Shown here one piece after another: positions 2,325-59,809 of a DNA stretch of 64,000 bases. Below the pieces are notes generated by a model. That model worked only from the letters and a program-made list of their open reading frames with translations. It did not search any database and was not told the DNA's origin. The translations under genes and the position numbers were made by a program. How positions within the stretch are numbered: position 1 is the first letter of the stretch; each line of letters starts with the position of its first letter. The stretch is from Gammaproteobacteria bacterium (GTDB lineage: Bacteria > Pseudomonadota > Gammaproteobacteria > Natronospirales > REEB76). Where the stretch lies: the NCBI GenBank assembly GCA_028870845.1, contig JAGWOR010000007.1:1-64000 (forward strand), written 5' to 3'.

Positions 2325-3980
2325 ATGGTTCTGTCGACGCGCGTGAAGATCATTGTGGCTGCGGCGCTGTTCGCCATCGCCTGGTTCGCCAATCTTCAGT
2401 ACCGCGACCTGTTTCAGACGGACGAAGGCCGCTACGCGGAAATTCCCAGGGAAATGCTGGTGAGCGGCGACTGGGTGACCCCGCGCCTGGACGGCTTCAA
2501 ATATTTTGAAAAACCCGCGCTCCAGTACTGGACCACCGCCGCGGCGTACAAACTATTCGGCGCATCCAACTGGACCTCGCGACTCTGGACCGCGCTCACC
2601 GGTTTTCTGGGAGTGCTGATGACCGCCTGGGTGGGCTGGCGGCTGTTCGACCGCAGGACCGGCTGGTGCGCAACCCTGGTGCTGGGCAGCAGCATCTACT
2701 ACGTGATCATGGGGCACTTCAACACCCTCGACATGGGCGTGAGTTTTTTCATGTGCATGTCGCTGTTCGCTTTCCTGATGGCGATGCGCGCGGGTGATTT
2801 GAACGAGGCGCGCGTCAGTCGCGGCTGGATGTACCTGGCATGGGCGGCGGCTGCGCTTGGCATGTTGAGCAAGGGGCTGGAAACCGTGGTGTTGCCAGGC
2901 CTGGTATTCGTCATATATACGCTGGTGAGCCGTGACTGGAAGCGCTGGAAGCAGCTGCACTGGTACGGCGGCCTGCCGATATTCCTGGCGATCGCCGCGC
3001 CCTGGTTCGTGGTGGTGTGTGTGCGCAACCCGGATTTTTTCTCTTACTTTTTCATCTATGAACATTTCGACCGTTTTCTGACGCCGGTGGCGCACCGGCC
3101 GGGCGGCTGGTGGTACTTCATTCCGGTGCTGCTGTTGGGCCTGTTACCCTGGTTGCCGCAGTTTCTGCGCTCGCTGTTCAGGCCCTGGCGATTGCCGGCT
3201 GCTGATGGCCGGGCGGGCGGTTTCAATCACGTGCTGTTCTTGTGGCTGTGGTGCGTGGTGATATTCGTGTTCTTCTCGTTCTCCGATTCCAAGCTGGCCA
3301 GTTACATCCTGCCGATTTTCCCCGCGCTGGCGCTGCTGGTGGGTCGCGAGCTTGCGGTGCTGCGCCGCGGAGACGCGCTGTTCACCGCCCTCATCTGCAT
3401 GCTGATGGCGGTTGCGGCCCTGTGGCTGGCGCCGTTGATCCGCCAGGACGGCGGCTCGCTGCCGCTGCAGCTTTACCAGGAAATCCTGCCATGGATGATC
3501 GCGGGCTGCGGACTGTTTCTGCTGGCGGCCGTCGTCGGCTTTTTCCTGGCCTATTTCCGCTGCACTGGCACCGCCCTGGCGTTGATTGGAACCGGGCTGT
3601 TCCTGTCCACGCAAGTCATCAGCAGCGGCGCACAGGTGCTGTCGCCGGTGTATTCCGGTCGTTCCCTGGCCAGGCAGATCAGCCCCTGGAACAAGCCGGA
3701 CGTCCCGTTTTACAGCATCAACGACTATCAGCAGTCGCTGCCTTTTTATCTCAATCGCACCCTCACGCTGGTTGCCTACAAGGGCGAACTGGCATTCGGC
3801 ATCAGCCGCGACCCGCAGAAATGGATTCCGGATATCGACAGCTTCATATATATATGGCAAAAAGACCCGCAGGCGCTGGCGGTGATGCCAACCGCCACTT
3901 ACCAGGAACTGGAAAATAAAGGCGTAGCCATGCAGATTATCGGCCGGGACCCGGAACGCATCGCGGTGAAAAAACCATGA
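2325..3980 (+). CDS. arnT: ArnT-like glycosyltransferase 39 family protein (L-Ara4N transferase)
   Basis: Multi-TM protein; DEGRYAEIPREMLVSGDWVTPRLDGFKYFEKPALQYW is the ArnT/PMT family signature; adjacent arn genes. Confidence 0.88.
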   Translation: MVLSTRVKIIVAAALFAIAWFANLQYRDLFQTDEGRYAEIPREMLVSGDWVTPRLDGFKYFEKPALQYWTTAAAYKLFGASNWTSRLWTALTGFLGVLMTAWVGWRLFDRRTGWCATLVLGSSIYYVIMGHFNTLDMGVSFFMCMSLFAFLMAMRAGDLNEARVSRGWMYLAWAAAALGMLSKGLETVVLPGLVFVIYTLVSRDWKRWKQLHWYGGLPIFLAIAAPWFVVVCVRNPDFFSYFFIYEHFDRFLTPVAHRPGGWWYFIPVLLLGLLPWLPQFLRSLFRPWRLPAADGRAGGFNHVLFLWLWCVVIFVFFSFSDSKLASYILPIFPALALLVGRELAVLRRGDALFTALICMLMAVAALWLAPLIRQDGGSLPLQLYQEILPWMIAGCGLFLLAAVVGFFLAYFRCTGTALALIGTGLFLSTQVISSGAQVLSPVYSGRSLARQISPWNKPDVPFYSINDYQQSLPFYLNRTLTLVAYKGELAFGISRDPQKWIPDIDSFIYIWQKDPQALAVMPTATYQELENKGVAMQIIGRDPERIAVKKP

Positions 3981-4348
3981 ACCTGGTCAGCTTTCTTCTG
4001 GTCATCACCGGCGTGTTGCTGAACGCTGCCGCACAGCTCTTGCTCAAGGCCGGCGTGCGCCACATGGGCGTGATCAAGCTGCAGTTCGCCACCATCATTA
4101 CAGCCGGCTGGAAACTGGCATTCGAACCCCACATCCTGGGCGGTCTGACCTGCTACGTGGTGAGCGTGGTGGTGTGGATTCTGGCATTGTCACGCGTACC
4201 GGTGAGCATCGCCTACCCGATGCTGTCACTGGGTTACGTAGTGACGGCGGCCGCAGCCTGGGCGCTGTTTGGTGAGTCGCTAGGAGCCATGCGCCTGACC
4301 GGCATAGCGGTGATCATCGTCGGCGTCTATCTGGTGGCGCGCAGCTGA
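3977..4348 (+). CDS. SMR/EamA-type small transporter, ArnE/ArnF-like flippase subunit
   Basis: 123 aa, four hydrophobic segments, ARVPVSIAYPMLSLGYVVTAAAAW-type SMR motif; ATGA overlap with arnT. Confidence 0.8.
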   Translation: MNLVSFLLVITGVLLNAAAQLLLKAGVRHMGVIKLQFATIITAGWKLAFEPHILGGLTCYVVSVVVWILALSRVPVSIAYPMLSLGYVVTAAAAWALFGESLGAMRLTGIAVIIVGVYLVARS

Positions 4349-4377
4349 GCCCACGATTCTTGCAGACAGGAAAATAC

Positions 4378-5502
4378 ATGAGCGAATACTTGCCGTTCAC
4401 AAGACCCACTATCGATGAGCAGACCATTGCGGAAGTCGGTGAGGTACTGCGTTCGGGCTGGATCACTACTGGCCCGAAGGTGGCGGAATTCGAGCAGGCC
4501 CTAACCGAGTATCTGGGTGGCGGCCGCTTGGTACGCACATTCCTGCACGCCACCGGCGCCCTGGAAGAGGCCCTGGTGGTATGCGGCATCGGGCCGGGTC
4601 ATGAGGTGATTGTGCCGGCCATGACCTTTGCGGCCACAGCCAACGTGGTGCTGCGCCTGGGCGCCAAACCGGTGCTGGTGGACGTGGATCTGAGATCCCG
4701 CAGCCTGTTGATGGATCAGGCCACCGCGGCGGTGACGCCGAAAACCCGGGCCATCATGCCGGTGCACCTGAATGGCCTGGCCGCCGACCTGGACGCAGTG
4801 TATGCGCTGGCCGGAAAGCACCACCTGCGGGTGGTGGAAGACGCCGCCCAGGCCATCGGCACCTTATATAAGGGCCGCAAAATCGGTTCCTTCGGTGATC
4901 TGGTGGTGTTCAGCTTCCACCCCAACAAGAACCTCACCACGATCGAGGGCGGAGCAGTGTCACTGGCGGATCCGGATGAAACCAGGACCCTGGAAATCCT
5001 GCGCTTTCACGGCATCACCAAGCATGCGGATGGCACCATGGACGTGACGCGTCCGGCCAGCAAACATAACCTGACTGATGTGGCTGCATGCGTGGGGCTT
5101 GGCCAGCTGCGGCATCTGGACGGGTTCAATCAGAAGCGCCGCCAGCTGGCAAACCGTTATTTCGAAATGCTGGCGGACGACCGGCTGGGAGTGCTGCCGG
5201 CGCGCGGCGACGCAGGACACAGCTGGCACATGTTCACACTGCTGCCGCGGTACAGCAGCGCCTGCCCGGACCGCAATACCCTGCGCCAGCGCATGCACCA
5301 ACGCGGCATCGGCCTCGGCATTCACTACCAGGCACTCAACCAGTTCACGCTGTACAAAAACATGGGTTATCCTGAGGGCAGTTTTCCCAACGCTGAGCGC
5401 ATTGGCCGCGAGACCGTGACTTTGCCGCTGTTCCCGGCCATGCAACTCTCCGACGTGGAGCGGGTGTGTGAAGCGCTGGATCAGTGCCTGAATTCGCGCT
5501 AA
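4378..5502 (+). CDS. arnB: UDP-4-amino-4-deoxy-L-arabinose aminotransferase (DegT/DnrJ/EryC1 family)
   Basis: LPFTRPTIDEQTIAEVGEVLRSGWITTGPKVAEFE..., VVEDAAQAIGTLYKGRKIGSFGDLVVFSFHPNKNLTTIEGG. Confidence 0.92.
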   Translation: MSEYLPFTRPTIDEQTIAEVGEVLRSGWITTGPKVAEFEQALTEYLGGGRLVRTFLHATGALEEALVVCGIGPGHEVIVPAMTFAATANVVLRLGAKPVLVDVDLRSRSLLMDQATAAVTPKTRAIMPVHLNGLAADLDAVYALAGKHHLRVVEDAAQAIGTLYKGRKIGSFGDLVVFSFHPNKNLTTIEGGAVSLADPDETRTLEILRFHGITKHADGTMDVTRPASKHNLTDVAACVGLGQLRHLDGFNQKRRQLANRYFEMLADDRLGVLPARGDAGHSWHMFTLLPRYSSACPDRNTLRQRMHQRGIGLGIHYQALNQFTLYKNMGYPEGSFPNAERIGRETVTLPLFPAMQLSDVERVCEALDQCLNSR

Positions 5503-16816: not shown

Positions 16817-17550
16817 AGGGATTGCGCATCGCCATGTGGTCCGGCCCGCGCAATATTTCCACCGCCATGATGCGTGCCTGGGAAAACCGCCGGGATACTG
16901 CGGTGATCGACGAGCCTTTCTACGCCTATTACCTGCTGAATACCGCTACCAATCATCCGGGCCGTGATGAGGTGCTGGCCTCACAATCCACCGACTGGCG
17001 GGCAGTGGCGAGCATGCTCGCCGGGCCGATTCCGGGCGGCAAGACCATCTGGTATCAGAAGCACATGACCCAGCACATCCTGCCCGACATGCCCTTGGAC
17101 TGGCTGGACGGACTGGTGAACTGTTTCCTGATCCGCGCCCCCCGGGAGGTGGTGGTTTCTTTCACCGCCATTCGTCCGGATGCCGCCATCTGGGAACTGG
17201 GCTTCGAGCAGCAACTGCGCATTTTCGAGCACGTGTGCCGGCAGAATGCCGGTGTGCCGCCCATCGTGGATGCCGCCGACATTCTGAAAGATCCCGCCGG
17301 CATGCTGCACGCCTTATGCACGCGCCTGGACGTGCCATTCAGCGAACGCATGCTCCACTGGCCGGCGGGTAAGCGTGCCAGCGACGGCGTATGGGCCAAG
17401 TACTGGTATCAGGCGGTGGAGCGCTCCACCGGCTTCGACACGTACAAACCCCGAAAGCCTGAACTCAGCGCCTTCCAGAAGCGCCTGGTGGAGCAATGCC
17501 AGCCGTTATATGAACGCCTGTGGACCCAGAGGATCTTGCCGGCGGCTTGA
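16813..17550 (+). CDS. sulfotransferase-like protein
   Basis: MKGLRIAMWSGPRNISTAMMRAWENRRDTAVIDEPFYAYYL (PAPS-binding-like 5' motif), CFLIRAPREVVVSF; ATGA overlap with the preceding aminotransferase. Confidence 0.75.
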   Translation: MKGLRIAMWSGPRNISTAMMRAWENRRDTAVIDEPFYAYYLLNTATNHPGRDEVLASQSTDWRAVASMLAGPIPGGKTIWYQKHMTQHILPDMPLDWLDGLVNCFLIRAPREVVVSFTAIRPDAAIWELGFEQQLRIFEHVCRQNAGVPPIVDAADILKDPAGMLHALCTRLDVPFSERMLHWPAGKRASDGVWAKYWYQAVERSTGFDTYKPRKPELSAFQKRLVEQCQPLYERLWTQRILPAA

Positions 17551-17647
17551 GTGGTCAGGGTATTTCCCGCGCCGTTTCAGTAAAATACGCGATTGCCCGA
17601 CCCGACCGGCATCATCCGGGCGGCCCTACCCCTGTTCCGGAGCCTGC

Positions 17648-20600
17648 ATGTCCCAGCCCGCTGAATCCCGACCCGCACCGCGCACCGCTTTTATTTTTGA
17701 GGGCGAAACGCCGGTGCTCGAGCCTTTGCGTTCCGCCATCAACGAACTGAACCTGGCCGACGAAACCCGGTGTGTGAACGAGCTGCTGGCGCAGGCGAAA
17801 CTGGATGCCGCTGCCCGGCAGCGCATCCAGGAGCAGGCCACACACCTGGTGGAGGCGGTGCGCAGCAACCGTTCTGGGAAAGGCGGGGTGGAGGCATTCC
17901 TGCGCCAGTATGACCTGTCCTCCCAGGAGGGCATGGTGCTCATGTGCCTGGCCGAGGCTCTGCTGCGCATACCGGACGCGGATACCGCGGATAAACTGAT
18001 CCGCGACAAGCTATTGAGCGGCAAGTGGCAGGAACACCTGGGTGAAAGCTCTTCGTTATTCGTGAATGCCTCCACCTGGGGATTGATGCTGACCGGGAAG
18101 CTCATCGCGCTAGACCGCAGCGTGGAGAAAAACCTCTCGAGCTACATGGCAAAAATGGCGACCCGCATCGGCGAGCCGGTGATTCGCAGCGCTTTCCGCC
18201 AGGCCATGCGCATCATGGGCCACCAGTTCGTCATGGGACGCAGTATCGAGGAAGCGCTCAAGCGCGCCGTCAGCCAGGAGCATCGTGACTTCCGTCATTC
18301 CTACGACATGCTGGGTGAAGCCGCGCTCACTGCCCGGGATGCGCAGCGTTATTTCGATGACTATAGCCGTGCCATCGACATCATTGGCGCAAGCTTCGAT
18401 AAAAACATGAACGTTTTCGCCGCCCCAGGAATCTCGGTGAAACTTTCGGCATTGCATCCGCGCTATGAATACGCCCAACGTGAGCGGGTGATGCGGGAAC
18501 TGGTGCCCAGGCTGCTGGCGCTGGCGGAACGCGCGGCCCGTTACAACATGGGCATGACCGTGGATGCGGAAGAGGCCGACCGCCTGGATTTATCGCTGGA
18601 TGTATTCGAGGCGGTATACCGCTCGCCATCCCTGAAAGGCTGGGAAGGTTTTGGTGTTGCCGTGCAGGCTTACCAGAAACGCGGCATCCGCGTAATCGAC
18701 TGGCTGCAGGCCATGGCCATGGCCAGGGACAGCAAGCGCCGCATGCCGGTGCGTCTGGTGAAAGGCGCCTACTGGGACAGCGAAATCAAGCGTGCCCAGG
18801 AACGCGGCCTGCAGGGCTATCCGGTCTTCACCCGCAAGGCCAACACCGATGTTGCCTATCTGGCCTGCGCGCGCAAACTCATGGGCATGCGTGACTGGCT
18901 GTATCCCATGTTCGCCACCCACAACGCCCATACCCTGGCCAGCGTCTTGGAAATGTCCGGCGGCAAACCGGAATATGAATTTCAGCGACTGCACGGCATG
19001 GGTGAAGAGTTGTATTCGGAAGCCATGAAAACCGGCAAGCATCAAGTGAACTGCCGCGTGTATGCGCCGGTCGGCAATCACAAGGACTTGCTGCCTTATC
19101 TGGTGCGCCGGCTGCTGGAGAACGGTTCCAATACTTCGTTTGTCAACCGCATCATCGATGAGAAAGTGCCGGTGGCCTCCATCGTTTCCGACCCGGTGGC
19201 GGAAGTGGAGGCCCTGGCTGAAAAACCGCACCCACGCATCCCACTGCCGGCGGATATCTACGGAACCGCGCGCCGTAATTCACGCGGCCTGAATCTTACG
19301 GATGTGGAAGTGCTGACGCGCCTGTCCCGGGACATGGAGCACAGCATGCGGCGCGAGTGGCATGCAGCGCCCATCGTGGGCGGCAAGGAATTTGACGGCA
19401 AGCAAAAGCCCTCGCTCAATCCGGCGGACAACAGCCAGACCGTGGGCCTGATCCGGGAAGCGGATGCCGACACCATCCGCAAGGCAGTGGATCTGGCGGT
19501 GGCTGCGCAACCGGCTTGGGACCGGACGCCCGCCGCGGAACGCGCCCGCATCCTGCGTCGTGCCTCGGATCTGTTTGAGGAGCATGCCGCCGAACTCATG
19601 GCGCTGTGTGTGCGCGAAGCCGGCAAAAGCATTCCGGATTCACTCTCCGAAGTGCGCGAAGCAGTGGATTACCTGCGTTACTACGCAGAGCGGGCGGAGG
19701 AGGATTTCGGCAAGCCCCTGCGGCTGCCCGGTCCAACCGGAGAATCCAACGAGTTATGGCTGCAGGGCCGCGGCGTGTTCGTGTGCATCAGCCCGTGGAA
19801 TTTCCCGCTGGCGATTTTTACCGGCCAAATGAGCGCGGCTCTGGCGGCCGGCAACGCGGTACTGGTGAAGCCGGCCGAACAGACCTCGCTGATCGGCGCC
19901 CAGGCCGTGCGCCTGCTGCACGCGGCCGGAGTGCCCGGGGACGTGCTGCATTTCATCCCGGGGCGCGGTTCGGTGGTGGGACAAAATGCGGTTGCGGATC
20001 CGCGCATCGCCGGTGTGGCGTTCACCGGTTCCACGGAAACTGCCAAGGTCATCCACCAGACGCTTGCCAACCGGGATGGTGTGATCCCCGCACTGATCGC
20101 CGAGACCGGCGGCCAGAATGCCATGCTGGTGGATTCCTCGGCGCTGCCGGAACAGGTGGTGCTGGACGTGGTCAGTAGCGCTTTCAACAGCGCCGGGCAG
20201 CGCTGTTCTGCCCTGCGGGTGCTGTTCGTGCAGGAGGAAATTGCCGAGCGCGTCATCGAAGTATTGTGCGGGTATCTGGACGAGTTGCGTATCGGCGATC
20301 CGGCGTTTATTGACACTGACGTGGGCCCGGTGATCGACGCTGCGTCCAAACAGGATCTGGACAAACACAAGGAGTGGATCAAGACCCAGGGCAAGGTGCT
20401 GCGCGAACTCAAACTGCCGGCTGCTTGCGCGCACGGCACCTATGTGACTCCCATGGCGGTGGAGCTTCCGTCATTGGATGTCCTGAAGCGCGAAGTATTC
20501 GGCCCGGTACTGCACGTGATCCGTTTCAAGTCCAGCGAGCTGGATGCGGTGATCGACAGCATCAATCACACCGGCTATGGACTGACGCTGGGCGTGCATT

Positions 20601-20845
20601 CGCGCATCGACAGCCAGGCGCAGTACATCCAGCGCCGCATCCGTGTCGGCAACGTGTATATCAACCGCAACATCATAGGAGCGGTGGTGGGCGTGCAGCC
20701 CTTTGGCGGACAGGGACTATCGGGAACCGGGCCCAAGGCTGGCGGGCCACATTACATGTTGCGCTTCGCCACGGAGAGAACGATAACCATCAATACCGCT
20801 GCTGTGGGTGGCAACACCACGCTGTTATCGATGGGAGACGGTTGA
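17648..20845 (+). CDS. putA: bifunctional proline dehydrogenase / L-glutamate gamma-semialdehyde dehydrogenase
   Basis: PRODH barrel (GMTVDAEEADRLDLSLDVFEAVYRSP, RLVKGAYWDSEIKRAQ), ALDH domain (FVCISPWNFPLAIFTGQ, GQRCSALRVLFVQEE). Start at ATG 17648; no N-terminal RHH DNA-binding domain visible. Confidence 0.95.
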   Translation: MSQPAESRPAPRTAFIFEGETPVLEPLRSAINELNLADETRCVNELLAQAKLDAAARQRIQEQATHLVEAVRSNRSGKGGVEAFLRQYDLSSQEGMVLMCLAEALLRIPDADTADKLIRDKLLSGKWQEHLGESSSLFVNASTWGLMLTGKLIALDRSVEKNLSSYMAKMATRIGEPVIRSAFRQAMRIMGHQFVMGRSIEEALKRAVSQEHRDFRHSYDMLGEAALTARDAQRYFDDYSRAIDIIGASFDKNMNVFAAPGISVKLSALHPRYEYAQRERVMRELVPRLLALAERAARYNMGMTVDAEEADRLDLSLDVFEAVYRSPSLKGWEGFGVAVQAYQKRGIRVIDWLQAMAMARDSKRRMPVRLVKGAYWDSEIKRAQERGLQGYPVFTRKANTDVAYLACARKLMGMRDWLYPMFATHNAHTLASVLEMSGGKPEYEFQRLHGMGEELYSEAMKTGKHQVNCRVYAPVGNHKDLLPYLVRRLLENGSNTSFVNRIIDEKVPVASIVSDPVAEVEALAEKPHPRIPLPADIYGTARRNSRGLNLTDVEVLTRLSRDMEHSMRREWHAAPIVGGKEFDGKQKPSLNPADNSQTVGLIREADADTIRKAVDLAVAAQPAWDRTPAAERARILRRASDLFEEHAAELMALCVREAGKSIPDSLSEVREAVDYLRYYAERAEEDFGKPLRLPGPTGESNELWLQGRGVFVCISPWNFPLAIFTGQMSAALAAGNAVLVKPAEQTSLIGAQAVRLLHAAGVPGDVLHFIPGRGSVVGQNAVADPRIAGVAFTGSTETAKVIHQTLANRDGVIPALIAETGGQNAMLVDSSALPEQVVLDVVSSAFNSAGQRCSALRVLFVQEEIAERVIEVLCGYLDELRIGDPAFIDTDVGPVIDAASKQDLDKHKEWIKTQGKVLRELKLPAACAHGTYVTPMAVELPSLDVLKREVFGPVLHVIRFKSSELDAVIDSINHTGYGLTLGVHSRIDSQAQYIQRRIRVGNVYINRNIIGAVVGVQPFGGQGLSGTGPKAGGPHYMLRFATERTITINTAAVGGNTTLLSMGDG

Positions 20846-21029
20846 CAGGTTATGGTCACCATCTTCTGGTTAGAAGCCACCCAGGAATGATTTGGCTTAG
20901 CTTGATGATTAAGAGCGAATCCAACTGTAATTTGTTAAAATTGACAGGATTTGGTTGCGTATCGCGCGCATCAAGTTAATTTTCCTGCATTACCAAAAAT
21001 TTCATTTAAAGCCAAAGTTAGGATTTAGG

Positions 21030-23354
21030 ATGACAAACCTGAATATCAGCCAGCTTGAGAAAAATTATCCCCATTGGGAAAAACTCAAAGACATGATTGA
21101 TCAATCCATTGATCTCATGTTAAACCTGCGTCAGAGTGGCCATCCTGGAGGCTCGCGTTCCAAAGTCCATATGCTGGTGGCGACCCTGCTTTCCGGGGCC
21201 ATGCGATGGGATATCCGCCACCCGGAAAAGCGCTTCGCCGATCGCTTTGTGCTGGTAGCCGGCCACACAGTGCCATTGGTATACGCGACCCTGGCGGTAT
21301 TCAATGAAGCATTGCGACGGAAATTCAAGACCACCGGCGACACGCGTTATCAGATACCCGGTGAAGCGGTGTATTGGGAAGACCTGCTCAGATTCCGCCA
21401 TAACGGCGGTTTAGCCGGTCATGCGGAAATGTCCGGAAAAACACTTTTCTTTAAGTTCAATACCGGGCCATCCGGTCATGGTTCACCTGCCGCAGCGGGA
21501 GAAGCGGCTGCCCTGAAGTTGGCCGGTTTGGATGATGTAAAAGTATTTGCAATTGAAGGCGAAGGTGGGGCCACCACCGGTGCAACCCATGAAACGATGA
21601 ATTCAGCCTGGGGTTTGGGACTTGATAATTTGTATTACCTGTTGGACTGGAATGATTACGGTATCGATAACCGGCCATTTAGCAGCGTGGTGTATGGATC
21701 TCCCCAGGATTGGTTCGGTTCCCACGGTTTCCGCGTATTCGGCGCTGAAAACGGCATGGATTGGCCTGATGTGACCGCTGCCCTAGTGGCAACCATGAAC
21801 ACCGAAAATCCCGACCAGCAGCCCAATGTCACCTGGTTTAAGACACGCAAGGGGCGGGGGTATGAGGTCTACGATAATAAATCCCACGGAACACCGCATA
21901 AATTCAACAGTGATTTGTTCTGGAAGACCAAAAAAGCGTTCACAGATAAATACGGGATCAGCTTTGAAGGTTTTGGCGCCACCGGACCGGATGAGCAACA
22001 AGCCCGTCTGAAACAGACGGCCGCCAATTATGAAAAAGTATTTTCACTCTACGATGATCCAAGCTTTTTGGATTATGTGGCAGATACACTGGTAGAAATT
22101 GGTGATTCGGTCCCCGCGGAAAAAACCACGGCGTACTTCAATTTCACAAAGAATCCGTTCAAGGATCCCGTGCTGACCGATTATAAAAATTACCCTCCGG
22201 AATTATTTGAAAATCCCGGTGAAAAACAACCCAATCGGGCCGGATTTTCAAAATTTGGCGCCTGGATTAATGCCTATGCCTATCAGAAATATGGCCGGCC
22301 GCTGGTCATTGCCATGTCGGCAGATCTGGCGGACTCCACCAATATTTCGGGATTCGCAAAAGCGTTCGGGGACTTTGCGGGATTGGGATTTTACGACCGG
22401 GTGCATAACCGGAAAGGCTGTCTGCTTCCCCAGGGGATCACTGAATTTGCCAATGCCGGAATTTCGGCTGGAATCGCCACGGTGAATCTGAGCGACAAGC
22501 CATTTGAAGAATTCAACGGTTATTATGCGGCTGCCTCCACCTACGGTTCATTTTCCTACTTGAAATACGGGCTCATGCGCCTGTTCAGCCAGGTTGCCCA
22601 GGACTCAGAAATCAAGGTTGGCAAGGTGATCTGGGTGGCGGGCCACTCCGGTCCTGAAACTGCGGAGGACTCACGCACCCACTTTGGCGTATTTTCACCG
22701 GCAGTGACCCAGCTTTTCCCGGAGGGACAGATAATCAATCTGTACCCCTGGGAGCACAATGAAGTCGCCCCAATGCTGGGTGCCGCACTGGCCACCGAAG
22801 TGCCCATAATCGCCCTGCATTTGACACGGCCAGCGGTTGAAATTCCTGATCGAAAAGCCTTGGGAATGGGCTCGTACCTGGATGCTGCAAAAGGCGCTTA
22901 CTTGATTCGTGATTATAAAAAGGGATTGCCCAAAATGGGCTGTATATTCGTTCAGGGAACGAGTACAACTGCGAATGTAATCAAGATCCTGCCCAAACTG
23001 GATGAATCCGGTATCAATGTGAAAATAATCGCTGCGGTGAGTCCGGAATTGTTTGCCCGTCAACCGCAAGCCTACCGGCAGCAGATAGTGTCAGTCAGTG
23101 ACTGGATGAATTCCACGGTGATTACCAATGGTGCGCGGCGCACCATGCATGACTGGCTGGCAAACAAAATCGCCGAGGAATACGCCCTTTCCTCTGACTG
23201 GGATAACCGCTGGCGAACCGGCGGTTCCGTGGACGAAATTTGTGATGAAGCCCATATCTCGCCAGCCTGGATTCTCAAGGGCGTCCAACGCTTCGCCAGC
23301 GAACACGAAGAGCGTCTCAGTAGGCTGCGTAAGATGGTGGAGCAAATCAGCTAA
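21030..23354 (+). CDS. divergent transketolase-like protein (774 aa)
   Basis: LRQSGHPGGSRSKVHML, GHAEMSG...NTGPSGHGSPAAAGEA, GEGGATTGATHETMNSAW TPP region, AGHSGPETAEDSRTHFG, RBS AGGATTTAGG before ATG 21030. Confidence 0.85.
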   Translation: MTNLNISQLEKNYPHWEKLKDMIDQSIDLMLNLRQSGHPGGSRSKVHMLVATLLSGAMRWDIRHPEKRFADRFVLVAGHTVPLVYATLAVFNEALRRKFKTTGDTRYQIPGEAVYWEDLLRFRHNGGLAGHAEMSGKTLFFKFNTGPSGHGSPAAAGEAAALKLAGLDDVKVFAIEGEGGATTGATHETMNSAWGLGLDNLYYLLDWNDYGIDNRPFSSVVYGSPQDWFGSHGFRVFGAENGMDWPDVTAALVATMNTENPDQQPNVTWFKTRKGRGYEVYDNKSHGTPHKFNSDLFWKTKKAFTDKYGISFEGFGATGPDEQQARLKQTAANYEKVFSLYDDPSFLDYVADTLVEIGDSVPAEKTTAYFNFTKNPFKDPVLTDYKNYPPELFENPGEKQPNRAGFSKFGAWINAYAYQKYGRPLVIAMSADLADSTNISGFAKAFGDFAGLGFYDRVHNRKGCLLPQGITEFANAGISAGIATVNLSDKPFEEFNGYYAAASTYGSFSYLKYGLMRLFSQVAQDSEIKVGKVIWVAGHSGPETAEDSRTHFGVFSPAVTQLFPEGQIINLYPWEHNEVAPMLGAALATEVPIIALHLTRPAVEIPDRKALGMGSYLDAAKGAYLIRDYKKGLPKMGCIFVQGTSTTANVIKILPKLDESGINVKIIAAVSPELFARQPQAYRQQIVSVSDWMNSTVITNGARRTMHDWLANKIAEEYALSSDWDNRWRTGGSVDEICDEAHISPAWILKGVQRFASEHEERLSRLRKMVEQIS

Positions 23355-23500
23355 GGAAGACGGTTACAAACGAAGGTTTCACAATAAAATGATTGGATTA
23401 ACGATCATATCCACAACTCCGGCTTCCATAAATGGCATGCATTAGTAAATATTGCTGAGTAAGCCGGCGGATCTGGTTGCCATGTATAAAGAGGTTCAAT

Positions 23501-24697
23501 ATGCGAAAATTTTCAAAACGGTTTGGCCGGCTTGGTACTGAAACTGCATTTGCCGTGGGCGCCGATGCGGCCGCTTGGGCGTCGCAAGGCAATACCGTCT
23601 ATCCGTTTCATTTGGGAGACATTAATCTTCCCACGCCAAAGCATATTGTCGAGGCAGCCATGGCTGCCATCAAAGCCGGTAAAACCGGTTATGCACCCGG
23701 TGCGGGCATTATGCCATTACGGGAAAAACTAGCGGAAAATGTGGGAATCGATCGGGGTGTCCAGTACGCAGCTGAAAATGTTTCGATCCAACCAGGCGGA
23801 AAACCGGTAATCGGCAAATTTTTGGGCGTACTCCTATCTGAAGGCGATGAGGTCTTGTATCCCAACCCCGGCTATCCCATTTACGAATCGCAGATCGAAT
23901 ATCTGGACGGCAAGGCGCTGCCCTATGGGTTTACGCCTGTTGCCGGTGGTTTTGCCATCAATCGGGAAGAAATCGAACGCCAGATTACCGACAAAACCGT
24001 CGCCATCATCTATAACAATTATCAGAACCCGATCGGCGCAGAATCTTCCGCTGAAGAGATGCAGTATATTGCTGATCTGGCGATTAAACATGATCTTTGG
24101 GTCCTGTCGGACGAAGCTTATTTCGATATTCGCTATGGCGGAAAAAGCGAGAGTATCGTGTCTTTGCCCGGGATGCGGGAACGCACGGTCATTCTGTATA
24201 CATTTTCCAAAAAATTTGCCATGACCGGTTGGCGTTTGGGGGCTGCTATTGGACCGTCTGATTTTATATCCGGGATTTCAAAATTTAATACCAACTATGA
24301 ATCCTGTTCAAACCATTTTGTTCAATACGCCGGTATAGCCTGTTTAACCGGACCGCAAGATCCGCAACTGGCGATCATTAAAGAACTGCGCCAACGCCGG
24401 GATGCGCTGGTTAATGCGCTGCAAGATATCAATGGTGTCAAGGTTTCCAAACCGAATACCACCTTTTACTTGTTTCCTGACGTGACGGAAATATACCAAC
24501 GCAAGGGCTATACCAGTTCAGCCGCATTTCGCAAGGATGCTTTGGAAAAAACCGGCGTGTCCTTCTGCTCACGTGAGCATTTTGGACGACGCCTGCCGAC
24601 TGAAAACAAGATATTTGTGCGATTTGCCTATTCTGGAATCAATGTGCCTCAAATTGAGGAAGGACTGGCTAAACTCAAAGTCTTTTGGGAATCGTAG
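23501..24697 (+). CDS. class I/II PLP-dependent aminotransferase
   Basis: GKTGYAPGAGIMPLREKLAENV, YPNPGYPIYESQIEYLDG, YNNYQNPIGAESS, LSDEAYFDIRYGG, YTFSKKFAMTGWRLG (Schiff-base Lys). Confidence 0.92.
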   Translation: MRKFSKRFGRLGTETAFAVGADAAAWASQGNTVYPFHLGDINLPTPKHIVEAAMAAIKAGKTGYAPGAGIMPLREKLAENVGIDRGVQYAAENVSIQPGGKPVIGKFLGVLLSEGDEVLYPNPGYPIYESQIEYLDGKALPYGFTPVAGGFAINREEIERQITDKTVAIIYNNYQNPIGAESSAEEMQYIADLAIKHDLWVLSDEAYFDIRYGGKSESIVSLPGMRERTVILYTFSKKFAMTGWRLGAAIGPSDFISGISKFNTNYESCSNHFVQYAGIACLTGPQDPQLAIIKELRQRRDALVNALQDINGVKVSKPNTTFYLFPDVTEIYQRKGYTSSAAFRKDALEKTGVSFCSREHFGRRLPTENKIFVRFAYSGINVPQIEEGLAKLKVFWES

Positions 24698-24870
24698 TGA
24701 AAAGCGAATCAGTTCATTCAAAATATATGCCGCCGAGCTTTGTCATTCAATTTCAAAACTGGGTGCAAATGCCCGGGCGAATCCGCCGCTGATATCAGCA
24801 AGACATATAACCCCGGGTTGACTGGCCTGAGATTATCCCACCGGGTGCTCCAAGCGATGCGGCGGCGGCA

Positions 24871-24899
24871 TTGACGTATATACCATAGGGGGGTATAGT
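24871..24899 (+). promoter_or_regulatory. csoR promoter with CsoR-type operator dyad
   Basis: TTGACG (24871-24876), 17-bp spacer, TATAGT (24894-24899); dyad TATACC-ATAGGGG-GGTATA at 24879-24897 lies between and over the -35/-10. Confidence 0.8.
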
Positions 24900-24907
24900 A
24901 TGCAGTC

Positions 24908-25186
24908 ATGCCGCATACCAGCCACCGACAGCAGCTTCCCCGGCTGAAGCGCATCCAGGGCCAGGTCGCCGGCCTGTTGCGCATGGTCGAACAGGAACGC
25001 TACTGCGCCGATATCCTCACCCAACTGCGCGCCGTGCAGGCGGCGTTGCGCAGCGCCGAGCAGGAGATTCTCAAGGGCCATATCGAGCACTGTGTGGCGG
25101 ATGCCATCGACAGCGGCGATCAGCGCAAGCGCCAGGCCAAACTTTCCGAGCTATACGACATCCTCAAGCGATTCGGCTCATCCTGA
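24908..25186 (+). CDS. csoR: CsoR/RcnR-family metal-sensing transcriptional repressor
   Basis: LPRLKRIQGQVAGLLRMVEQERYCADILTQLRAVQAALRSAEQEILKGHIEHCV is the family signature with Cys/His ligands. Confidence 0.92.
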   Translation: MPHTSHRQQLPRLKRIQGQVAGLLRMVEQERYCADILTQLRAVQAALRSAEQEILKGHIEHCVADAIDSGDQRKRQAKLSELYDILKRFGSS

Positions 25187-52863: not shown

Positions 52864-53882
52864 GCACGTTCAGGATCATGCCGAAGACACGGGAGCATCG
52901 TCCGATTCCGGCCGCGTCACACCGGGTATGTGTGGCGCCCATGATGGACTATACCGACAGGCATTTCCGCTATTTGATCCGCCTCATGAGCCGGCATACC
53001 CGCCTGTATACCGAAATGCTGACCAGCGGTGCGCTGCTCAACGGCGATTCCCGCCGGCACTTGGCATTCCACAGCGCCGAACACCCGCTTGCCCTGCAGG
53101 TGGGAGGCAGCGACCCCGGCGAGCTGGCCCGCTGTACACGGCTGGCTGTCGATTACGGCTATGACGAAATCAACCTCAATGTGGGTTGTCCCAGCGAACG
53201 CGTGCAGTCGGGGCGTTTCGGTGCCTGCCTGATGACGGAGCCGATGCTGGTGGCGGATTGCGTGGCCGCCATGTCGGCTGCTGGCGGCATACCGGTTAGC
53301 GTTAAGACCCGCATCGGCGTGGACGAGCACGACAGCTACGCGCACCTGGCGGATTTTATACACACGGTGAGCACGGGCGGCTGCAACCTGTTCATTATTC
53401 ACGCGCGCAAGGCCTGGCTGCACGGCCTTAGCCCCAAACAAAACCGCGAGTTGCCGCCGCTACAGTATGCGAATGTGCGGCGTCTCAAACAGGATTTTCC
53501 CAGTCTGACTATCGTGATCAACGGCGGAATCCAGACGCTGGAAGACATGCAATCGCATCTAAATTCACTGGATGGCGTGATGATCGGCCGCGAAGCCCTG
53601 GCCAATCCTTATCTGTTCGCACAGGTGGATCTTGCCTGTTTCGGCGAGCCCGGTTCGGTGCACTCACGCTCACAGCTGCTGGAGGACTGGCTGCCCTATG
53701 TTGAATCGCAGCTGCGTGCGGGTGTGCCGTTGGCGCGCATGAGCCGGCATGTGCTGGGCATATTTAAAGGCTGTCCGGGCGCACGCCGATGGCGGCGGAT
53801 TTTGAGCGAAACTTGCACACTTCCTGAAGCAACTATCCAGAGCCTTGATGCTGCACTATCTGTCGTGCAGGAAAATGCATAG
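52842..53882 (+). CDS. dusA: tRNA-dihydrouridine synthase A
   Basis: VAPMMDYTDRHFRYLIRLMSRHTRLYTEML, LNVGCPSERVQSGRFGACLM, HARKAWLHGLSPKQNRELPPL. The true start may be downstream of 52842. Confidence 0.93.
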   Translation: MAASVSLSTFRIMPKTREHRPIPAASHRVCVAPMMDYTDRHFRYLIRLMSRHTRLYTEMLTSGALLNGDSRRHLAFHSAEHPLALQVGGSDPGELARCTRLAVDYGYDEINLNVGCPSERVQSGRFGACLMTEPMLVADCVAAMSAAGGIPVSVKTRIGVDEHDSYAHLADFIHTVSTGGCNLFIIHARKAWLHGLSPKQNRELPPLQYANVRRLKQDFPSLTIVINGGIQTLEDMQSHLNSLDGVMIGREALANPYLFAQVDLACFGEPGSVHSRSQLLEDWLPYVESQLRAGVPLARMSRHVLGIFKGCPGARRWRRILSETCTLPEATIQSLDAALSVVQENA

Positions 53883-54347
53883 TGCATAGAGATTCAAGTA
53901 CGCTGTATATTGCGATACACGTATGAGCGCAGCGTAAATCACTGCATGCAAAGGTCCGGGTGGGTCGATGCGCGTATTTGGTGCATAGGAAAGCGCATAT
54001 ATATTTTTATGCACGTTTATGTGGAATCGTAATGAGTTTGTCATTCGAATTTACCCGGGGATCGGCAAATAAAAAATCCGGACTCCTGATCTCACATGAC
54101 CTCACGAGTCTGCATTGCAACAATCTCAGGTAAATGAATGGCTTATGTGAACTTTAGCGAAGGAGTTCACCAGCGTCGCGTAAACGCAACGATTTTTGCT
54201 TAACCATAAATCCTTTCATAAGCCGGTGGATTTCCTCATCAATCTAGCGCAGTAATCACTGTATCTGTTTATTTTTTATGAGATTTAATTTTTAAAGCCG
54301 TTTTTTATCACTCCAGCTGGCATAAACAGAAAATTATTTTTTGTCCC

Positions 54348-54467
54348 TTGACAGCGACAAGCTGAGTGCTACCCTCAAGGTACTAAGAAAAACCCTGCTG
54401 CCTCTCGGGGGAGTCAAGGCAACACGTTTTTGGGTAAGGCACCCGCTTGCGGGCGCCTTAGTGTTTT
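54348..54467 (+). promoter_or_regulatory. putative promoter and structured 5' leader of the giant secreted protein
   Basis: TTGACA (54348-54353), 16 bp, extended TGCTACCCT; hairpin TGCC-CTC/GAG-GGCA (54399-54421); terminator-like hairpin TAAGGCACCCGC TT GCGGGCGCCTTA (54435-54460) flanked by AACAC/GTGTT and TTTTCCTT. Confidence 0.5.
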
Positions 54468-54490
54468 CCTTGCTGTTCGGGAGATGACAC

Positions 54491-57400
54491 ATGCTTCGTA
54501 AGATCTTGGGCCTAAAGGCCGCTTTCCTGAGTACCGCGTTCCTGATGCTGCTTTTATGCCTGCCACAGGCGCAGGCTGCAAACACTTCAGGTGCACATAC
54601 CTATACCTCGTCGATTTACAGTAAGGCGGTGCCGGTGACAACCCCGGCTCTCCGTACCCTGCAACATACCAATTTGCCGTCGATCATGCGGGCGGTAATT
54701 GGTAACCGCAGTTACTCCCAACAGCAGATCGATCAGCTTCGCCAGAAGCTGATCGCTGGCGGCTATATCAAGCCGCCCAAGTCACCCTACCTGATCCCCC
54801 TCGGGAAGCTGAAACCCACTGGCGCCATGCCCCAGGGTGTCGTCAGCACCCGCCACTTGCAGTCACACATGGGCCAGCGCCTGAGCATCAGCACCGGCGT
54901 AGTGTTCCCCGGCATCGGCGTGTCCGACTCGCCGCCGGATTCCATCGGCTGCGCCCCGCCCGATACCGACGATGCCGTCGGCCATGACACCGCCATCGGC
55001 GGTGATGCAGTGGTCGAAATCGTGAACACCTGTGAAGGCCCCGGCGTGGGCTCCTTCAAGGTGTGGAATGCCAGCACCGGCGCCGTGATCCAGGGCACCA
55101 CTTCCTTGGCAGGTATGTGGTCCTCCGGCAGCGGCTGCGACAACGGCGGCGGCGACAACCAGGTCCTGTACGACCAGTTCGCCCATGTCTGGCTGTTGTC
55201 CCAGTTCAACAACGCCTATACCGGTATCTGCCTCGCGGTCTCCAGCACCGATGACCCGACCGGCACCTACCATCTGTACAACATCGTCATGGATCCCAAT
55301 GGCTTCACCGACTACCCGAAGGTGGGCATCTGGGTGACCGGCGATGCCAACACCGATTCCTACTTCGTGTCGGCCAACGACTTTCCGCCGGCGGCCTGCG
55401 GCAATTGCGTGGTCTACACGGCCGTGCAGCGCTCGGCAGCCCTCAGCGGCGGCACCGCCGGCGTGCTCACCGTCATCGGCCCTTCGTACACCACCGGCCT
55501 GGACTTCTCGGCCCTGCCGGCCGATGTGGACGGCCTCAACATGGCGCCCCTGGATGACCCCGAAATTTACATGGACTACATCAGCCCGTATTACTACGGC
55601 GGCAACACCTACGCCCTGGAACTGTGGCAGATGTCGGTGAACTGGAGCGCTAATAGCGCCAGTGTCACCGGCCCCACCGCGATCACGGTGGATCCGTTCG
55701 AGGACGGCGCTATTGGATGCGCGCCCCAGCCTTCGCCGGGCGAATGCCTGCCGACCCTGGGCGACCGCTTGATGTTCCGGCTGGCCTATCGCAACGGCTA
55801 CACAGGCAACTCCGACCAGGTGCTGTTGGTCAACCACGCGGTGGTTGACACCAGCCAGAGTTCGAACCCCATCGGCATCGACTGGTATGAGCTCACCGCG
55901 CCCTCCGGCAGCACCAATGTGGGTGACTGGGCCATCGCCCAGCAGGCCTTGTATTCCCCGGCCGATGGCAATAGCCGCTTCATGGGCTCCATCTCCATGG
56001 ACCATGTGGGCAACATCGGCCTTGGCTACACCATCTCGGGTCCTAGTGTGGATCCCTCGGTCGCGGTCACCGGACAGGACGTCGGCTCGCCCCCGGGGAC
56101 CATGGATATACCTGAGAACATCCTGATCGCCGGCACCGGCGTGCAGGAGAGCACCGGCCGTTGGGGCGACTATTCCTCCATCATGGCCAGCGCCACCGAT
56201 GACTGCACCTTCTGGACCGCCCAGGAGTACATCTCCAGTACCGGTTCCTTCCACTGGTCCACGGGCAATGGTTCGTTCAAGTTCACCAACTGCTCCATCG
56301 GACCGGAAGGCACCCTGGCCGGCACCATCACCGATGCCAACACTGGCAACCCGATTTCCGGTGCCGCGGTGACCCTCACCCCCGGAAACGATACCGCCGT
56401 CAGCAACAGCAGCGGCCAATACACCATGACCGTACCAGTGGGTACCTATGCAGCCGCGGCTTCAGCATTCGGCTACGTGACAGGCACGGCCTCGGGTCTG
56501 GGTATCACCCAGAACCAGACTCTGACCCAGGACTTCTCCCTGACTCCGGAGCCCTCGGCCACCATCTCGGGCAATGTCAATGACGCCACCCCGAGTGGCC
56601 ATGCCTATGGCCTGTACAGCGAAGTCAAGGTGACCACGCCCAATTACGGCCAGGTGGCGGATGTCTGGACCAGCCCCACGGGCGCCTACAGCGTGTCCGT
56701 GCCGCAAGGTGCTGATTACACCCTGACCGCGACACCGTACCTGCCTGGCTATGTGGCGGGTACCGCCACGGTCACCAATTTGGGTGGCGACACCTCCCAG
56801 AATCTGGGCCCGACGGTGGGTTCGAGCTGCTCGGCTCCAGGCTATGGTTTCGTCAACGGTTTCGGCGAGAACTTTGACGGTGGGACTTTCCCGCCCACCG
56901 GCTGGACCGTGACCAATGACTACTCGGGTTCACCGATCCAGTGGGATACCAATGCCAACTGGAACGACCAGAACTACACCAACGGTACCGGCGTAGCGGC
57001 CACCGCCGACAGCAACAATGCTGCCAGCCTGTATGGCTACACCGGCAGCTACGACACCTCGCTGGAAACGCCGGAAATCCCGGTGGCCAGCCTGGGTCCC
57101 AACCCGGTGCTGTCGTTCTCCGTGAACTATCACGAATACAGCGGCAACGATGCCCTGGACGTGGATGTCAGCGGTGACGGTGGCACCACCTGGACCACCC
57201 TGGACCACATCACCACCAACTATGGAGCGCTGTACTCGACGCCGGGAGCCAATCTCCAGGTGCCGCTGACGATCCCCAATGGCGCGACGCAGATCATCCT
57301 GCGGTGGCGCTATTACAACCTGGTGAGCGGTTTTGACTGGTATGCGCAGATCGACAACGTGTCGGTCGGTGCGTGCACAGCCTTTGCCGGCGGACTGGTG

Positions 57401-59809
57401 TATGGCCAGGTGACGGACCAGAACACCGGCCTCGGCCTGAACGGCGCAGCGGTGTCCGATAGCAACTCGCCGGCCAACAGCACCACCACCTTCACCAACA
57501 CGGCGGACCCGAACCTGCCGCCGGCGTATTACTTCCTGTTCAGCGACACCAATGCTGCGGACGTAATCACCGCCTCGTATTCGGGTTACACCAGCGGTAC
57601 CGCCACCCTGAACGTGACCAATGACAGTGAAACCCAGCAGGATTTTGCCCTGGGCGCGCCCCAGTTCAGCATCAATCCGACGAAGTTTGCACTGCATGTC
57701 AGGGTCGGGACCCAGGCCATCCGCTACCTGACGATCAACAACACCGGTACCGGGGACGGTAACTACAGCTTCCTGACCTTCGACAACGCGCCTCCCTCCA
57801 TGCCCACCGGTGGTGGAGCCCCGCTGAACTCGATCCACTGCCAGCATCTGGCGCCTGCGAGCTACGTGTTCCTGGCACAGACCAAGGGTGGTAGTGGCTT
57901 GGATGCCGGCTGCGGTATCCAGGACGGCATGACCCGCGGTGGGCCGAACGGCTCGGGCTGGACGGCCCTCAGCAACCTTCCCTATTCGATCATGGACGAC
58001 GCCTCAGCCGAGGATGAAGGCACCGGGTTGCTGTACGACGTGGGTGGTTATGGCAGCTCCGGCGTGACCGCCAATGCCAACGTCTACGATCCAAGCACCG
58101 GCACCTGGACGGCCATTGCACCCATGCCGGCGGCCCTGGAAAAACCGGCTGCTGCCTTCATCGCCGGCAAGCTGTATGTGGCCGATGGCTGGACCGGTTC
58201 CGGTAATGCCTCCGGAGCCCTGTACGTCTATGACCCCAGCACCGGCGCCTGGACCACCGATGCAGCCAGCAATCCTGCTCCGGAAGGCGGTGGTGCGTCT
58301 GTGGCAGTGCTGAACAACCAGATGTACCTGATGGGCGGATGCCCCACGGGCTCCAGTTGTGGCGACACTCCGTTCGTGGCCTATAACCCGGCCACCGACA
58401 GCTGGACGCAGCTGGCACCGTATCCACACGCAAACTCTTGGGCGAGCTGCGGAGCGGTTGCAGGTGTCATCTACTGCGCAGGCGGTACCGCGGGCAGCAC
58501 CGAGTATGCCGACGGCTACATGTATGACGCATCCAGCAACAGCTGGACGGCCATTGCTCCAATCCCGGTGTCATCCGGCGGCTTGTGGGCATCGGGCTAC
58601 ATCGGTAACTCCCTGGGCCTGTTTGTTTCAGGCGGCGTGACCGCGAACTTCTCAACGGTCACCAACCAGGGCTTCGTCTACACCCCGGGCACCAACAGCT
58701 GGAGCGCATTGCCGAACTCCAACTACACGGATTACCGTGGCGGCAGCGCCTGCGGCTTCTATAGGGTCGGTGGTTCCAGCGGTGGCTTCACACCCACGAA
58801 CTACTTCGAAGTGTTGCCGGGTATCACACCCTGCGGTACTTCGCCGATTCCGTGGCTGTCCATTGAACCGCCCACAGGCACTGTGGCGGCGGGTAGCTCC
58901 GACCAGCTGAAGTTCCGCTTCCGCGGCGGCCCTGCCAGTGGTGTGAAACCCTTCACGGTTTCCCACGCCTACGTGGATCTCCAGGGCACGCCCTATGGCA
59001 TGCAGATGATCAAGCTGCAGGTACATTGGGACCCGATGCCTGTGGATCTGTCCGTGGCTGCGACCCAGAGCCTGCCCACTGTGTATGTGGGTGGTATCGA
59101 GGTGTACACCGTAACCGTGACCAATAACCAGAAACCTGGACATGGTCCGGCCACGCAGATTGCACTGACCTATAATCTGCCGGCGGGAGCCAATCTGCTC
59201 AACACGCAGGGTTCCATGACCTGCAGCCTGGTGAGCGGCGTCTCAACCTGCGATTACACTGTCCTGTCCCAGGGGCAGTCGGTCAGTGAGACCTACTTCG
59301 TAGTACCGTCCATTGCAGGGACTTTGAACAGCACATTCTCAGTCACTTCAAGGATGCCGGACGACAATCCTGCCAATAACACCACTTCGATCTCTGCGAA
59401 TGTGTTGGCAGTGGCACACGTGACCCTGAACTCCTTCACGGTCAACCATGCCAGCGTGCCTGTGGGTGGCCAGGTGACCTATAACCTGGGCGTTGGCAAC
59501 CAGGGCCCTGGCAATGCCAAGGGAGTCAAGATCACGCTTCCGCTTCCGGCGAACATGAAGTTTACCGGCTCAAGCTCGGGCGCCTGCTCCAACAGCAAGG
59601 GCTTGGTGATCTGCAACCTCGGGTTGATGACGAAAGGCGGCAACTCCAACGTGAGCATCACGGCAACCGCGGTTGGCGCGGGAGCGGTGAACACGATGGC
59701 GACTGTCTCCAGCACCAGCCGCGATCCGAGCAACAGCAACCACTCGGGCATCGTGCACATCACTGTGAGCCCCACGGCCCAGCCGCCGTCACCGCGCGGA
59801 GGCAAGTAA
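54491..59809 (+). CDS. large secreted protein: N-terminal beta-rich domain, CarboxypepD_reg-like repeats, kelch repeats, DUF11 repeats
   Basis: Signal peptide MLRKILGLKAAFLSTAFLMLLLCLPQAQA; GTLAGTITDANTGNPISGAAVTLTPG; VYDPSTGTWTAIAPMPAALEKPAAAFIAGKLYVADG kelch; HVTLNSFTVNHASVPVGGQVTYNLGVGNQGPGNAKGVKITLPLPANMKF DUF11. Confidence 0.85.
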   Translation: MLRKILGLKAAFLSTAFLMLLLCLPQAQAANTSGAHTYTSSIYSKAVPVTTPALRTLQHTNLPSIMRAVIGNRSYSQQQIDQLRQKLIAGGYIKPPKSPYLIPLGKLKPTGAMPQGVVSTRHLQSHMGQRLSISTGVVFPGIGVSDSPPDSIGCAPPDTDDAVGHDTAIGGDAVVEIVNTCEGPGVGSFKVWNASTGAVIQGTTSLAGMWSSGSGCDNGGGDNQVLYDQFAHVWLLSQFNNAYTGICLAVSSTDDPTGTYHLYNIVMDPNGFTDYPKVGIWVTGDANTDSYFVSANDFPPAACGNCVVYTAVQRSAALSGGTAGVLTVIGPSYTTGLDFSALPADVDGLNMAPLDDPEIYMDYISPYYYGGNTYALELWQMSVNWSANSASVTGPTAITVDPFEDGAIGCAPQPSPGECLPTLGDRLMFRLAYRNGYTGNSDQVLLVNHAVVDTSQSSNPIGIDWYELTAPSGSTNVGDWAIAQQALYSPADGNSRFMGSISMDHVGNIGLGYTISGPSVDPSVAVTGQDVGSPPGTMDIPENILIAGTGVQESTGRWGDYSSIMASATDDCTFWTAQEYISSTGSFHWSTGNGSFKFTNCSIGPEGTLAGTITDANTGNPISGAAVTLTPGNDTAVSNSSGQYTMTVPVGTYAAAASAFGYVTGTASGLGITQNQTLTQDFSLTPEPSATISGNVNDATPSGHAYGLYSEVKVTTPNYGQVADVWTSPTGAYSVSVPQGADYTLTATPYLPGYVAGTATVTNLGGDTSQNLGPTVGSSCSAPGYGFVNGFGENFDGGTFPPTGWTVTNDYSGSPIQWDTNANWNDQNYTNGTGVAATADSNNAASLYGYTGSYDTSLETPEIPVASLGPNPVLSFSVNYHEYSGNDALDVDVSGDGGTTWTTLDHITTNYGALYSTPGANLQVPLTIPNGATQIILRWRYYNLVSGFDWYAQIDNVSVGACTAFAGGLVYGQVTDQNTGLGLNGAAVSDSNSPANSTTTFTNTADPNLPPAYYFLFSDTNAADVITASYSGYTSGTATLNVTNDSETQQDFALGAPQFSINPTKFALHVRVGTQAIRYLTINNTGTGDGNYSFLTFDNAPPSMPTGGGAPLNSIHCQHLAPASYVFLAQTKGGSGLDAGCGIQDGMTRGGPNGSGWTALSNLPYSIMDDASAEDEGTGLLYDVGGYGSSGVTANANVYDPSTGTWTAIAPMPAALEKPAAAFIAGKLYVADGWTGSGNASGALYVYDPSTGAWTTDAASNPAPEGGGASVAVLNNQMYLMGGCPTGSSCGDTPFVAYNPATDSWTQLAPYPHANSWASCGAVAGVIYCAGGTAGSTEYADGYMYDASSNSWTAIAPIPVSSGGLWASGYIGNSLGLFVSGGVTANFSTVTNQGFVYTPGTNSWSALPNSNYTDYRGGSACGFYRVGGSSGGFTPTNYFEVLPGITPCGTSPIPWLSIEPPTGTVAAGSSDQLKFRFRGGPASGVKPFTVSHAYVDLQGTPYGMQMIKLQVHWDPMPVDLSVAATQSLPTVYVGGIEVYTVTVTNNQKPGHGPATQIALTYNLPAGANLLNTQGSMTCSLVSGVSTCDYTVLSQGQSVSETYFVVPSIAGTLNSTFSVTSRMPDDNPANNTTSISANVLAVAHVTLNSFTVNHASVPVGGQVTYNLGVGNQGPGNAKGVKITLPLPANMKFTGSSSGACSNSKGLVICNLGLMTKGGNSNVSITATAVGAGAVNTMATVSSTSRDPSNSNHSGIVHITVSPTAQPPSPRGGK

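Follow-up and report, generated by a model that had tools for sequence, protein, structure and literature searches.

A block of two genes lying between putA and csoR in a gammaproteobacterial genome was, with strong support from sequence comparison, acquired horizontally. It lies in a stretch of 64,000 nucleotides, referred to here as the window, and encodes a deeply divergent transketolase-like protein (TK-like) followed by an aminotransferase. The pair was acquired jointly from the Fidelibacterota or a near relative, and we consider it probable that TK-like is a functional alternative transketolase that travels with an aspartate-type aminotransferase. What is worthwhile and new is an uncharacterised TK-like family with a predicted Glu metal ligand, caught moving between phyla. 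The region comprises the following features.

17375..20845, + strand: putA, the left host flank; an open frame whose start codon is probably further in, with a C-terminal part matching at 87-91% in nine congener genomes
20846..24870, no strand: the acquired island at its maximum extent (low GC; gene-free junctions in congeners; host-like sequence again from ~24871)
21030..23354, + strand: TK-like, a divergent transketolase-like protein of 774 aa with GEG for GDG (Pfam, Foldseek, catalytic residues, 81-82% to L001/L002/L047)
23501..24697, + strand: class I/II PLP aminotransferase of 398 aa, aspartate-type, Ib-like (Pfam Aminotran_1_2, PDB relatives, 80-81% to genes in L001/L002/L047)
24871..24899, + strand: csoR promoter-like element TTGACG-17-TATAGT, the host-derived right boundary (pattern scan and congener alignment)
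24908..25186, + strand: csoR-like regulator, the right host flank (73-80% identity in eight congeners)

The island and its origin

A preliminary description of this DNA had pointed to a two-gene block of lower GC between putA and csoR, and windowed GC bears this out. The GC content is 0.49-0.51 across positions 21,001-25,000, compared with 0.61-0.64 in putA and 0.58-0.63 in csoR/copA, giving a block of about 4 kb with ~50% GC within a region of ~60%. GC3 is likewise lower, at 0.56 for TK-like and 0.49 for the aminotransferase, whereas the 38 other long ORFs of the window average 0.69 (sd 0.08). Because the GC3 of TK-like is only ~1.6 sd below that mean and the window contains further GC dips (53.5-54.5 kb and 63-64 kb), composition alone would not prove transfer, and low GC is by itself suggestive only. 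Elsewhere in the window, positions 53501-59809 contain a second GC dip (~0.49) and then a protein of 1,772 aa that includes Kelch, DUF11 and CarboxypepD_reg domains, while positions 2325-5502 hold an ArnT-like aminoarabinose transferase near a DegT-type, perhaps ArnB-like, aminotransferase.

Both island genes are intact. TK-like starts with an ATG at 21030, and a start at an alternative TTG (20955) would lengthen the protein by 25 aa. The island extends at most over 20,846-24,870, its limits being set by the putA tail and the csoR promoter region, both of which can be aligned with the gene-free junctions of congeners. Promoter pattern matches in the region are not above chance, yet the stretch 24871-24899 is conserved in the alignment of the congeners. 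A mobile-element mechanism for the insertion was rejected, as neither tRNAs nor Rfam matches nor convincing terminal repeats were found in or around the island. Plasmid carriage was rejected as well, the plasmid matches being distant canonical transketolases only.

The relatives of the host provided the comparison with unoccupied sites. In three congeners (G002, G003 and G005), the putA-csoR junction is free of genes and spans 144-272 bp. Translations read by eye revealed an L-serine-dehydratase-like frame between putA and csoR in four others (G001, G007, G008 and G010) and a TPR-like frame in G004, so that csoR in the congeners either adjoins putA or stands apart from it through other inserts. 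Across the genus (congener loci L093 and L099-L105), the gap is thus a variable slot: empty, or occupied by a serine-dehydratase-like gene, a TPR-like gene or the TK-like/aminotransferase pair. TK-like had no high-scoring match in 94 relatives, ten congeners among them, and was found in 0 of 368 other genomes of the class sample at E<=1e-50. The host genome, a draft of 78 contigs that is 87.6% complete, encodes its own canonical transketolase, which is 23% identical to TK-like.

The closest proteins to TK-like, with 81-82% identity, belong to Fidelibacterota (Ca. Neomarinimicrobiota; loci L001, L002 and L047), and the aminotransferase is 80-81% identical to the genes adjoining TK-like in the same three loci. 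At the DNA level, the identity is 73-76% over both genes. In separate maximum-likelihood trees, the window and these three loci form a clade with support of 100/100 for TK-like and 100/97 for the aminotransferase. This clade is nested within a larger Fidelibacterota/KSB1/Calditrichota clade in the TK-like tree and lies among Fidelibacterota in the aminotransferase tree, one Spirochaeta being included in each. Along these branches dN is ~0.11-0.14 and dS is saturated or nearly so, indicating that both genes are under purifying selection. In one Neomarinimicrobiota draft genome, an in-frame stop splits the TK-like gene (L018, 3166-5526).

The empty congener sites, the lack of TK-like in the other sampled genomes of the class and the congruent, Fidelibacterota-placed trees together strongly support the horizontal acquisition that had been proposed for both genes: the block combines an empty site in close relatives with a discordant phylogeny. 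Both genes evidently came jointly from within the Fidelibacterota or from a closely related lineage; which lineage was the donor is less certain, as a KSB1/Calditrichota branch sits inside the TK-like tree. The pair arrived in the variable slot between putA and csoR, and its new host would thereby have gained a second transketolase beside the resident canonical one.

The transketolase-like protein and the aminotransferase

TK-like has the PP, PYR and C-terminal domains of the transketolase fold. Pfam Transketolase_N and Transket_pyr score above their cut-offs, with the C-terminal domain just below. Against curated NCBI transketolase models, it reaches 109 bits (cut-off 488) and 90.9 bits (TIGR00232 tktlase_bact, cut-off 682.25), in both cases far below the threshold. 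A profile of 37 TK-like homologues matched PDB transketolases with E-values down to 2e-30 and DXS weakly. Furthermore, the AlphaFold model (pLDDT 87, pTM 0.90) retrieved only transketolases among its best 50 PDB folds in Foldseek. Other identities were considered and rejected: pyruvate dehydrogenase E1 (AceE) gave no PDB match and only a weak local match to the PDH E1-alpha model, phosphoketolase gave neither a PDB match nor a phosphoketolase Pfam domain, and the similarity to DXS is weak and local only.

To compare individual residues, 46 TK-like proteins were aligned with nine canonical transketolases, using E. coli numbering. The equivalents of H26, H66, H100, N185, S385, E411, H461, D469, H473 and R520 are kept in all 46 proteins, and that of H261 in 45, the remaining one being unreadable; the family thus retains the catalytic and substrate residue set of transketolase. 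For R358 the local alignment is ambiguous, and a nearby arginine (R403) is kept in 43 of the 46. The usual ThDP-metal motif is GD-X25-30-N (PMC2831816). TK-like proteins instead carry GE-X29-N, with D155 replaced by Glu in every one of the 46 members, and the other uniform changes are Q118H, F434Y and the loss of E160 (A/P/T). TK-like is a deep, uncharacterised branch of the transketolase fold. Within the literature covered and with the terms used, our search found no paper linking transketolase with Marinimicrobia or Neomarinimicrobiota.

The second protein contains Pfam Aminotran_1_2 and shares ~30% identity with aspartate and prephenate aminotransferases of class Ib; its PDB relatives are enzymes of these two kinds, including the prephenate aminotransferases of Arabidopsis and Rhizobium. 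It reaches no curated NCBIfam cut-off among the matches listed, and the confidence of its predicted structure is moderate (pLDDT 76). The fold, the PLP lysine and the lysine of the GGK motif (K101) are those of class Ib. The substrate-site Trp of that class (P-x-W), on the other hand, is a Tyr (NPGYPIY) in 20 of 20 aligned members. Its substrates are most likely dicarboxylate amino acids; our confidence in this is moderate, given the presence of Tyr where the aspartate aminotransferase relatives have Trp.

Distribution and gene neighborhoods of the pair

We sampled 149 genomes of the donor phylum, 74 of which carry TK-like and 75 of which do not. To find canonical transketolases we used TIGR00232 (E<=1e-45), a search that detects split forms too. 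Such a transketolase was absent from 25 of the 74 carriers versus 4 of the 75 non-carriers (Fisher p 8e-6; one of the 149 genomes unplaced by name), a statistic weakened by draft incompleteness and shared ancestry, since the test treats related genomes as independent and a transketolase missing from a draft carrier genome can reflect incompleteness. The host and each of the 18 carrier genomes examined for it have ribulose-phosphate 3-epimerase. Transaldolase was found in part of the carriers only and was not found in the host draft. That transketolase is missing more often in carriers while the epimerase is retained suggests that TK-like can stand in for transketolase.

The aminotransferase family occurs in 55 of the 74 TK-like carriers versus 5 of the 75 others (p = 1e-18, related genomes again being counted as independent). 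The two genes are adjacent in 22 donor-phylum genomes, with aminotransferases of 72-81% identity, and in one Spirochaeta. Adjacency also extends to a second clade that branches more deeply, with ~60% identity (G229, G187, G160, G149, G213 and G227), inside which the trees of the two genes, compared for five members, are in agreement. The co-occurrence of the pair across distant taxa, by which the preliminary description had proposed to check it, is thus confirmed, down to these six more divergent genomes.

The typical gene order in Fidelibacterota is M1 peptidase, Rrf2, TK-like, aminotransferase, a fusion of NADP-malic enzyme and phosphotransacetylase (MaeB/PTA), and nuo. In Chloroflexota, Planctomycetota and KSB1 carriers, TK-like has other neighbors and no adjacent aminotransferase. 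Three genomes hold, downstream of uvrA, a canonical transketolase followed directly in tandem by TK-like (G122, G216 and G176; L106 4850-9174, L107 6256-10565 and L108 6655-10994). In two members of the deeper clade, the pair is followed by a gene of ~260 aa (L109 9428-11657 and L111 9656-11860); a tryptophanase/tyrosine-phenol-lyase-like gene is nearby in the first (G229), matched in size and position by a gene in the second (G187). The association of the two genes is real but not obligate, and for that reason fits two linked enzymes of central metabolism better than a strict two-step pathway.

Proposed function, alternatives and known relatives

From its fold, residues and phyletic pattern, we propose that TK-like, though deeply divergent, is a working transketolase. 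It would bind thiamine diphosphate with Glu in place of the usual Asp metal ligand, would move a two-carbon ketol unit between sugar phosphates, and would serve the non-oxidative pentose phosphate pathway either as a substitute for the usual transketolase or in addition to it. The second gene product would be an aspartate/glutamate-type aminotransferase. Since the donor pair adjoins the NADP-malic enzyme/PTA fusion and complex I, the two enzymes probably serve central carbon, nitrogen and redox balancing, with pentose phosphates on one side and aspartate-oxaloacetate on the other, rather than secondary metabolism. TK-like may not be redundant with the canonical enzyme, given the tandem arrangement in three genomes and the many carriers that hold both. 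Against a working transketolase stand the Glu at the metal site, where Asp155 is reported to be essential in the human enzyme according to a title cited in PMC2831816, the ambiguous alignment at R358 and the incomplete occurrence of transaldolase.

Should TK-like work as a transketolase, many genomes from Fidelibacterota and other uncultured lineages in which the enzyme seems to be lacking would have a pentose-phosphate shunt after all, one that goes unnamed in the curated models used here. The GD-X25-30-N motif, although conserved widely, would then have a Glu variant that is natural and stable. Otherwise, the two genes point to a so far unknown reaction of central metabolism.

An unlikely alternative is that TK-like is a ketol transferase with another donor or acceptor, whose keto sugar or keto acid product feeds the neighboring aminotransferase in a dedicated two-step pathway. 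The adjacency of the pair in deeply diverged lineages with congruent trees agrees with such a pathway, as do the family-wide changes at the cofactor and donor sites (Q118H, D155E, F434Y and E160 to A/P/T) and the lyase-like gene close to the pair in G229 with its same-size counterpart in G187, and the tandem with canonical transketolase suggests a distinct job. However, TK-like has the catalytic residues of transketolase and most of those at its phosphate site, many Fidelibacterota carriers have no other recognised transketolase, carriers from Chloroflexota, Planctomycetota and KSB1 have no aminotransferase next to the gene, and the pair is not accompanied by accessory genes specific to a pathway. 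It is equally doubtful, in our judgment, that TK-like forms a distinct Glu-ligand ThDP family which, with the aminotransferase, performs an undescribed ketol-transfer-plus-amination step portable between phyla, in Fidelibacterota and other lineages. The block had been put forward as a transferred module for carbon transfer and transamination, and as a candidate for undescribed metabolism: the transfer and the linkage of the genes hold, but a dedicated module with an unknown product finds little specific support, the transketolase active site being kept and the aminotransferase looking like an aspartate-type class I enzyme.

The chances are slimmer that the pair serves aromatic amino acid synthesis, with the transketolase supplying erythrose-4-phosphate to the shikimate pathway and the aminotransferase acting on prephenate. 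The Arabidopsis and Rhizobium enzymes among the best PDB relatives and the conserved GGK lysine would fit this role. In 1-beta aspartate aminotransferases, prephenate competence is marked by Lys, Arg or Gln at position 12 (T. thermophilus numbering). Here that position is Leu11 or Gly12, depending on the alignment register, so that the marker is replaced in either case, and the donor cluster contains no shikimate genes. It is very improbable that TK-like is a transketolase paralogue with a regulatory or ancillary role that catalyses little by itself and assembles into hetero-oligomers with the canonical enzyme: the tandem genes and the altered metal ligand would agree with it, but the family retains a strongly conserved active site, and roughly one carrier in three has no other recognised transketolase. 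Finally, a misassembly that joined Fidelibacterota reads into the host contig, for which the draft state of the genome and the unmarked insertion might speak, is the least credible, as it requires two false junctions, both falling cleanly within an intergenic slot that varies in congeners, as only two donor-cluster genes are present, with a spacing of their own (147 bp versus ~380 bp in L001 and L002), and as no near-identical donor was found, the closest DNA identity being the 73-76% given above.

Among known systems, TK-like stands close to the canonical bacterial transketolase (TktA/TktB; TIGR00232; PDB 1qgd, 3hyl and 8r3r), with which it has the fold, the domain order and the catalytic His, Glu, Asp, Arg and Ser residues in common. 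It differs in being only 21-23% identical and ~100 aa longer, with GEG for GDG, Q118H, F434Y and E160 lost. The N-terminal component of a split-chain transketolase (PDB 6yak) is its best PDB sequence match, although TK-like is one continuous chain. 1-deoxy-D-xylulose-5-phosphate synthase (DXS) belongs to the same ThDP superfamily and shows weak local similarity, but its scores are far weaker, and several carrier genomes contain separate DXS-sized matches. The aminotransferase, in turn, resembles class Ib aspartate and prephenate aminotransferases (PDB 1j32, 8wkj, 1bjw, 5wmh and 6f77) at ~30% identity near full length, with the same fold and both lysines, and departs from them in its Tyr for Trp and in lacking the prephenate-marker residue.
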